Assembly (NCBI GenBank): GCA_002796835.1
Contig: LUGL01000026.1
Span: 13,070-77,069 of the forward strand
DNA from: Elainella saxicola E1
GTDB taxonomy: Bacteria; Cyanobacteriota; Cyanobacteriia; Elainellales; Elainellaceae
Length of the DNA stretch: 64,000 nucleotides
Reading direction: 5' to 3'
Shown one piece after another: positions 35,438 through 38,016 of this stretch (position 1 is its first letter; each line of letters opens with the position of its first letter). The notes beneath the pieces were generated by a model. It saw only the letters and a program-made list of their open reading frames with translations, made no database searches and had not been told where the DNA came from. Position numbers and translations under genes: made by a program.

Positions 35438-37045
35438 GTGACTCTCCAAACTGAACAATCCCCTGTACAATCGTCTGCAAATCAGCTCAATCGTCAGATG
35501 ATTGTCATCCTGGATTTTGGTTCCCAATACTCCGAACTCATTGCTCGCCGCATTCGCGAAACTCAGGTTTATTCTGAAGTTCTCTCCTACCGCACCACTG
35601 CGGAACAGTTGAGGCAGCTCAACCCCAAAGGCATCATTTTGTCAGGTGGCCCTAGCTCGGTCTATGACGAAGGTGCTCCCCACTGCGATCCAGAAATTTG
35701 GAACTTGAATCTTCCGATTCTGGGGGTCTGCTACGGTATGCAGCTCATGGTACAGCAATTGGGTGGGGGCGTTGAACGGGCTGACCGGGGCGAGTATGGC
35801 AAAGCATCAATTCACATTGATGACCCAACCGATCTATTTACCAATGTCGAAGATGGGTCCACGATGTGGATGAGCCATGGCGACTCTGTAAAATCTTTGC
35901 CGCCCGGTTTTGAACTCCTCGCTCATACAGATAACACGCCTTGTGCGGCGATCGCCCATCATGACCGTAAACTCTATGGCGTTCAGTTCCACCCGGAAGT
36001 GGTTCATTCTCTAGGCGGACAAGCGCTAATTCGTAACTTTGTTTATCACATTTGTGCCTGTGAGCCCACCTGGACCACCGCTGCATTTGTAGAAGAAACG
36101 GTGCGAGAAATCCGGGCCAGAGTCGGCGACAAGCGGGTTTTGCTGGCCCTTTCTGGCGGTGTGGATTCCTCCACCCTGGCCTTCTTGTTGCATAAGGCGA
36201 TCGGCGATCAGCTCACCTGCATGTTCATTGATCAGGGTTTTATGCGGAAAGGCGAGCCAGAGCGGTTGTTGAAACTCTTCCAAGAGCAGTTTCATATCGG
36301 CGTCGAATATGTGAATGCTCGCGATCGGTTTTTAGCCAAGCTCTCAGGCGTTGTCGATCCCGAAGAGAAGCGCAAACTGATTGGCCATGAGTTTATTCGT
36401 GTATTCGAAGAAGAATCGAAGCGGCTCGGACCATTCGACTATTTGGCACAGGGCACGCTCTACCCTGATGTGATCGAATCTGCTGATACCAACGTTGATC
36501 CTCAAACGGGTGAGCGGGTTGCCGTTAAAATCAAGAGTCATCATAACGTTGGCGGACTGCCCAAAGACTTGCAGTTTAAGCTCGTTGAGCCCCTGCGGAA
36601 ACTGTTTAAGGATGAAGTGCGGAAAGTTGGCCGATCGCTCGGTCTACCTGAAGAAATTGTGCAGCGTCATCCTTTCCCAGGGCCTGGGTTAGCGATCCGT
36701 ATTTTGGGCGACATCACCGACGAAAAGCTGGAAATTTTGCGCGACGCCGACCTGATTGTGCGTCAGGAAATCAACCGCTGTGGTTACTATCACGAACTGT
36801 GGCAGGCTTTCGCCGTGCTGCTGCCCGTACGGAGTGTGGGCGTCATGGGCGATCAGCGGACCTATGCTTATCCGATCGTGCTGCGATTTGTCACTAGCGA
36901 AGATGGCATGACCGCAGACTGGGCAAGAGTTCCTTATGACTTACTCGAAACCATTGCTAATCGCATTGTCAATGAAGTTTCGGGCGTCAACCGGGTGGTT
37001 TATGATGTTACCTCGAAGCCGCCGGGCACGATCGAATGGGAGTAA
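35438..37045 (+). CDS. guaA: GMP synthase (glutamine-hydrolysing)
   Basis: 535 aa; [22 protein letters not shown]-terminal [11 protein letters not shown]. Confidence 0.99.
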
Positions 37046-37279: not shown

Positions 37280-37363
37280 TGTGGAAAACTCTGGAAAAGT
37301 CTGTGGAAAACCCCGATCGGCCTGTGGAAAACAGGCAAAATTTCTGTGGAGAACTGGGGAAAA
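37280..37363. promoter_or_regulatory. Array of DnaA-box-like sequences (candidate oriC or DnaA-binding locus)
   Basis: TGTGGAAAA at 37280-37288, 37302-37310, 37323-37331; one-mismatch boxes tctggaaaa 37290-37298, tgtggagaa 37345-37353, tggggaaaa 37355-37363; all same orientation. Confidence 0.6.
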
Positions 37364-37419: not shown

Positions 37420-38016
37420 TCATCGATTCATTTGTCGCTTCAATTCTGCTAATTCTTCATCCATCTCCCATTGCTTAAAGGTCTGCTCCAACAGATCCGC
37501 AGCTGTTGAACCTTTAAAAGTAGTGCTTTGATTCCAACCTGTGGTTTGCCACTGTTGTTCTGCTTGCGTTGCGGTTTGGGCTTGATAACTAGCACGACTG
37601 GCTTGAGCCTCAGCCACTTTGGCGCTCACTTCCTTTTTGCGAACTTGGATTTGCTGTTGGAGTTCGATCGTCTGTTGAATTCGCTGCTGCACCACCTGCA
37701 TTTGGCCCCAGAGTTGGTTCCCTTCTCGTAACAAGGCAGCTTCACGCTCTTCTGCAGGCTTCACCAGGTCAAGACGTTGGGCATTTTTCGCTTTTTCAAT
37801 CCGGACATGCCAGCGTTGAATTTCTTGAGCCGTGGCCAAAATATTATCTTGCAGCTTTTTCTCTCTTAAACGCAGATCGCCCAATAATTTGACGGTTTCT
37901 TCTTCCTGTTCCCGCAAATTTTCTTCCAGCGCCTGTAATTCTAAATGGGGATTGTTGCGAAGAAACTCTTCTAATCGCATTTCCAAAAAATTGCTCAGAT
38001 CTTCAAACAGCCCCAT
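37420..38016 (-). CDS. TIGR04376-type cyanobacterial coiled-coil protein
   Basis: 198 aa; MGLFEDLSNFLEMRLEEFLRNNPHLELQALEENLREQEEETVKLL. Confidence 0.75.
   Translation of the reverse strand: MGLFEDLSNFLEMRLEEFLRNNPHLELQALEENLREQEEETVKLLGDLRLREKKLQDNILATAQEIQRWHVRIEKAKNAQRLDLVKPAEEREAALLREGNQLWGQMQVVQQRIQQTIELQQQIQVRKKEVSAKVAEAQASRASYQAQTATQAEQQWQTTGWNQSTTFKGSTAADLLEQTFKQWEMDEELAELKRQMNR

Follow-up and report, generated by a model that had tools for sequence, protein, structure and literature searches.

A conserved array of DnaA boxes beside guaA in Elainella saxicola E1 and its relatives: a candidate DnaA control site outside oriC

Six DnaA boxes between two convergent genes

The 64-kb stretch of the Elainella saxicola E1 genome analysed here (the window) contains at 37280-37363, between guaA and a gene of the TIGR04376 family, an array of DnaA boxes that is conserved among relatives and may control DnaA from outside the replication origin (oriC). 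Boxes were scored on both strands against TTTTCCACA, allowing at most one mismatch. Within 84 bp there are three exact and three one-mismatch boxes in a single orientation, reading like TGTGGAAAA on the plus strand, with start-to-start spacings of 10, 12, 21, 22 and 10 bp. The scan thus reproduced the boxes and spacings of the original prediction, and profile matches confirmed that the spacer separates the 3' ends of guaA (+) and the TIGR04376-type gene (-). The features are as follows.

37280..37288, minus strand: DnaA box 1, exact TTTTCCACA
37290..37298, minus strand: DnaA-box-like, TTTTCCAGA, one mismatch; 10 bp from box 1
37302..37310, minus strand: DnaA box 2, exact TTTTCCACA; 22 bp from box 1
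37323..37331, minus strand: DnaA box 3, exact TTTTCCACA; 21 bp from box 2
37345..37353, minus strand: DnaA-box-like, TTCTCCACA, one mismatch; 22 bp from box 3
37355..37363, minus strand: DnaA-box-like, TTTTCCCCA, one mismatch; 10 bp beyond the box-like sequence at 37345
35438..37045, plus strand: guaA, GMP synthase (NF000848, TIGR00884 and TIGR00888 above cut-off); flanking gene
37420..38016, minus strand: TIGR04376 family gene, function unknown (E 3.5e-76); flanking gene

No exact copy of TTTTCCACA is found elsewhere in the window. The number of one-mismatch boxes in the whole window is ordinary (28 against 21.8 expected); it is their clustering that is unusual. In 60 simulated 64-kb windows generated under a first-order Markov model (3.84 Mb in total), the best cluster held two boxes, and two exact boxes never fell within 84 bp, where the real array has six boxes, three of them exact. 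The clustering is far beyond chance.

The array starts about 235 bp 3' of the end of guaA, and its last box is 56 bp from the 3' end of the TIGR04376 gene, so that it lies 3' of both convergent genes. Neither a sigma-70-like site nor a terminator hairpin was found at the array. Given this and its position at the 3' ends, no promoter role for the flanking genes is suggested, as had been anticipated. As a flanking gene, guaA itself probably takes no part in the mechanism.

Conservation of the array, and a second array upstream of DUF2811

The genes guaA, TIGR04376, hemJ, dnaN and dnaA were located in 60 relatives and their flanks read; dnaA is present in 60 of 61 genomes. Of the 36 genomes of the family to which E. 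saxicola belongs, 34 have at least three boxes in the same orientation 3' of guaA, of TIGR04376 or of both. In the remaining two, whose assemblies are incomplete, guaA is accompanied by two exact boxes. The conserved spacing is 20-22 bp, with secondary peaks at 10-11 bp. By spacing, the triads fall mainly into two classes, 22/21 (16 genomes, in which the equivalent of box 2 is the second box) and 21/20 (15 genomes), with a few others. Within these classes, over 232 genome pairs, the boxes are 99.2% identical and the spacers 40%; the box figure is partly built in, the pairs having been picked for their boxes, and it is the low figure for the spacers that carries information. The motif is also specific: 32 of 59 guaA 3' regions carry the array, and among 40 shuffled 9-mers one gave eight such regions and the rest none.

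The position of the array in the family is instructive. It lies between both genes in 10 genomes, at guaA only in 12 and at TIGR04376 only in eight (the other gene having been read and found without an array); in four more it is at guaA, with TIGR04376 not read. Where the two genes have separated, the array is beside one or the other, never both. Since a single array survives beside either gene after separation, it appears to be selected in itself and to be no by-product of either gene, and a link to the function of guaA or of TIGR04376 was rejected on the same ground. On this comparative evidence, the array is a real element kept by selection.

Outside the family the array is found at guaA in six genomes (G037, G042, G043, G054, G055 and G060). 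A survey of named guaA loci for which sufficient sequence downstream was at hand, which overlaps the survey of relatives in that some assemblies are in both (for instance L082 and G002), found it in 14 of 77, the carriers including Elainella sp. Prado103, Phormidium tanganyikae, Trichocoleus, Kastovskya and Kaiparowitsia. None of the Nostocales among these 77 loci has an array at guaA, their other loci having been only partly surveyed; the DUF2811 locus of Nostoc sp. 106C (L342) does have one, and we do not claim a correlation between the array and dependence on DnaA.

There is also a second array that is conserved. It has about four boxes, spaced at 21-22 bp, and is located a few hundred bp ahead of a gene for a DUF2811 protein (PF10929), a gene usually followed by hemJ (UPF0093). 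Of the 34 family genomes read, 31 have this array. Among class-level genomes the array is found in seven of eight hemJ regions with DUF2811 and in none of 12 without, and it also occurs at DUF2811 genes distant from hemJ (G040, L011). Its spread takes in much of the phylum, including Oscillatoriales, with representatives in Okeania, Microcoleus, Tychonema, Trichodesmium, Symploca and a Nostoc (examples in relatives: L053:5998-6071, L011:1457-1530, L338, L339 and L360). In E. saxicola E1 itself this array is degenerate: about 1.0-1.08 kb upstream of hemJ (L199, G000:C167) there are one exact box, one with one mismatch and others with two mismatches, the 11/21 bp register being kept.

Several other arrangements were seen. 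The DUF2811/hemJ array of G026 (L065:6049-6249) has apparently been duplicated in tandem, into two groups of five boxes separated by about 127 bp, and G005 has separate arrays at hemJ and at DUF2811, which are on different contigs (L046, L330). An exact triad with boxes 21 bp apart lies near an ndhB-like gene in G040, a genome without the guaA array (L074:6046-6096, G040:C1:2444045), and is possibly a relocated array. In Calothrix sp. PCC 7716 three exact boxes are 17 bp apart, outside the helical register (L344, G073:C1:10492012); no known neighbour gene was found at this triad.

Comparison with the dnaN-linked oriC

The original prediction proposed the cluster as a candidate oriC and recommended a genome-wide count of such clusters. 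In the whole genome (8.7 Mb in 284 contigs), exact boxes within 30 bp of one another occur at two loci only, the array and C8:22699-22893, and the reversed-string control gave none. Single boxes are enriched too, with 98 exact copies against 26 of the reversed 9-mer. The C8 locus (L040:9700-9894, G000:C8) is directly upstream of dnaN (C8:23142); dnaA is on another contig, C131. Eight boxes, some in each orientation, make up this locus, the canonical oriC; they include the tandem TTTTCCACATTTTCCACA, after which comes GCCTCTACTACTACTGG, and the tandem boxes are followed by DnaA-trios, CTACTACTACT. The locus fits the basal unwinding layout described in PMC8287927, a DnaA box with a DnaA-trio (3'-GAT-5'). 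Its box-trio string recurs at the dnaN-linked origins of several relatives.

The array shares with this origin the box and its flanking bases and has none of the features that mark oriC, namely boxes in both orientations, tandem pairs and trios. No DnaA-trio was seen at the array or in any of the guaA, TIGR04376 and hemJ regions tested. As for the AT-rich unwinding element that had also been suggested for checking, the array has no strong AT-rich block; its minimum guanine-plus-cytosine (GC) content over 50 bp is 0.32, compared with 0.28 at oriC.

As the genome is divided among many contigs, GC skew was sampled in two closed relatives. In G054 most of the sampled skew is positive over the first 2.0 Mb and negative between 2.2 and 4.7 Mb. 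Its sign changes at dnaA (position 37, with boxes in a run at 1535-1868 close by) and again near 2.2 Mb; neither change coincides with the guaA array, which lies at 1.49 Mb. The skew of G011 is flat and uninformative. In forty 20-kb samples from both genomes, runs of at least two close exact boxes were found only at oriC, guaA and hemJ. With a canonical oriC at dnaN on another contig, the array in the window is not the recognisable oriC, and box density alone could point to the wrong oriC in these genomes.

A putative DnaA control site

For cyanobacteria the reported DnaA box is the 9-mer TTTTCCACA, and domain IV of Cyanothece DnaA leaves footprints on such boxes (PMC4674748). The bases that flank exact boxes are likewise similar at the three loci: C is found at -1 with a frequency of 0.80 at guaA, 0.82 at hemJ and 0.79 at oriC, and at +9 with 0.88, 0.75 and 0.55, respectively. 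From this we infer that DnaA binds the array in E. saxicola E1.

Our favoured explanation, to which we give a probability of roughly 0.7, is that the array is a conserved DnaA-binding site outside oriC that tunes the amount of active DnaA available to oriC. It is based on the same-orientation boxes two helical turns apart, on their independence of either neighbouring gene and on the lack of an origin-unwinding motif. DnaA would bind the boxes, and neighbouring protomers would line up head to tail along one face of the double helix; because there is no trio, the complex would not melt the DNA. Instead it might hold DnaA and/or alter its ATP/ADP state, so that initiation would be restrained. The effect might instead be of the opposite sign, with DnaA reactivated in the manner of DARS.

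Three points weigh against this explanation. Among 25 dnaA-bearing class-level relatives from outside the family, only six have the array, which is thus no general requirement. Both the binding of DnaA and the regulatory effect are deduced from sequence. Finally, of the genome's 98 exact boxes the array holds three, with which simple sponge titration would be weak, and by this reasoning catalysis or nucleation would be a more plausible role than bulk titration. Of the alternatives originally put forward, oriC or a DnaA-binding reservoir, the first is contradicted; the second stands as regards a binding site outside oriC, for which conservation, spacing and shared box flanks argue, and is less convincing as regards bulk titration.

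A DARS-like site, whose boxes would promote the release of ADP from DnaA, is rather unlikely for the array of the window. DARS needs opposed boxes, the first being inverted relative to the others. Extra inverted boxes are found at most 60 bp upstream of the array in 14 relatives, at exactly 15 bp in eight of them (G007, G011, G019, G020, G024, G025, G027 and G032), and these eight guaA arrays are possibly a DARS-like variant; the window, however, has no inverted box with up to one mismatch within that distance.

It is improbable that the array acts as a DnaA roadblock or terminator insulating the convergent transcription of guaA and TIGR04376. The array does lie between convergent genes in most genomes, but the next gene is co-directional in G005, G023, G054 and G011, and the array is upstream of a neighbour in G021 and G022; these six non-convergent contexts count against insulation, as do the missing hairpin and the like architecture upstream of DUF2811.

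A replication origin, main or auxiliary, at which DnaA would load and open the DNA, is very improbable. Dense DnaA boxes in an intergenic spacer would suit one, and the use of multiple origins by some cyanobacteria is cited in PMC7198777, but the trio-bearing oriC at dnaN in the same genome, the single orientation of the array boxes, the want of a trio or strong AT-rich block and the skew switches of G054 led us to reject it. Recognition of the repeat by a protein other than DnaA could appeal to the indirect case for DnaA binding and is scarcely credible, in view of the reported box and of a 9-mer and flank preferences that match those at the dnaN-linked oriC.

DnaA-box control sites outside oriC are already known as a kind, from datA, DARS and the clusters of Bacillus subtilis, and by analogy the array may act like datA or the B. 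subtilis clusters. The datA locus of Escherichia coli, at which DnaA-ATP is hydrolysed, is likewise a small non-coding cluster of about five DnaA boxes outside oriC, with conserved boxes and spacers that vary among strains (PMC4585315). It needs an IHF site between its boxes; the array resembles it in the box cluster, and the regular 21-22 bp same-orientation layout is a feature of the array. E. coli DARS1 and DARS2 share a core of three DnaA boxes outside oriC (three exact boxes in the array) and the presence of more than one such locus per chromosome; they differ from the window array in the upstream inverted box, which 14 relatives do have. In B. subtilis, loss of all six DnaA-box clusters outside oriC leads to early initiation (PMC5295017). 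Here, in contrast, there are two conserved clusters with fixed helical spacing that can be tracked by gene neighbourhood across many genera.

In the literature searched, with most subscription journals outside its scope, no cyanobacterial DnaA-box locus outside oriC is described. Searches on cyanobacteria with datA or DARS and on DUF2811 with DnaA returned nothing on such arrays, and those on guaA with DnaA box only E. coli guaB work. That nearly all relatives retain the array at one location, though it is not oriC, suggests a so far undescribed DnaA control site in cyanobacteria. More tentatively, and again by analogy, the guaA/TIGR04376 array of this clade and the DUF2811 array, which is widespread in the phylum, could together form a two-locus control of DnaA, datA/DARS-like in function, which would set DnaA activity and hence the number of polyploid chromosome copies that replicate. 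For the question of how DnaA is restrained in polyploid cyanobacteria, a conserved non-coding array offers a concrete locus to delete or mutate. In Synechococcus elongatus, unknown factors beyond the intrinsic ATPase are reported to regulate DnaA activity (PMC6478999); the two-locus system, if true, would be one candidate for them.
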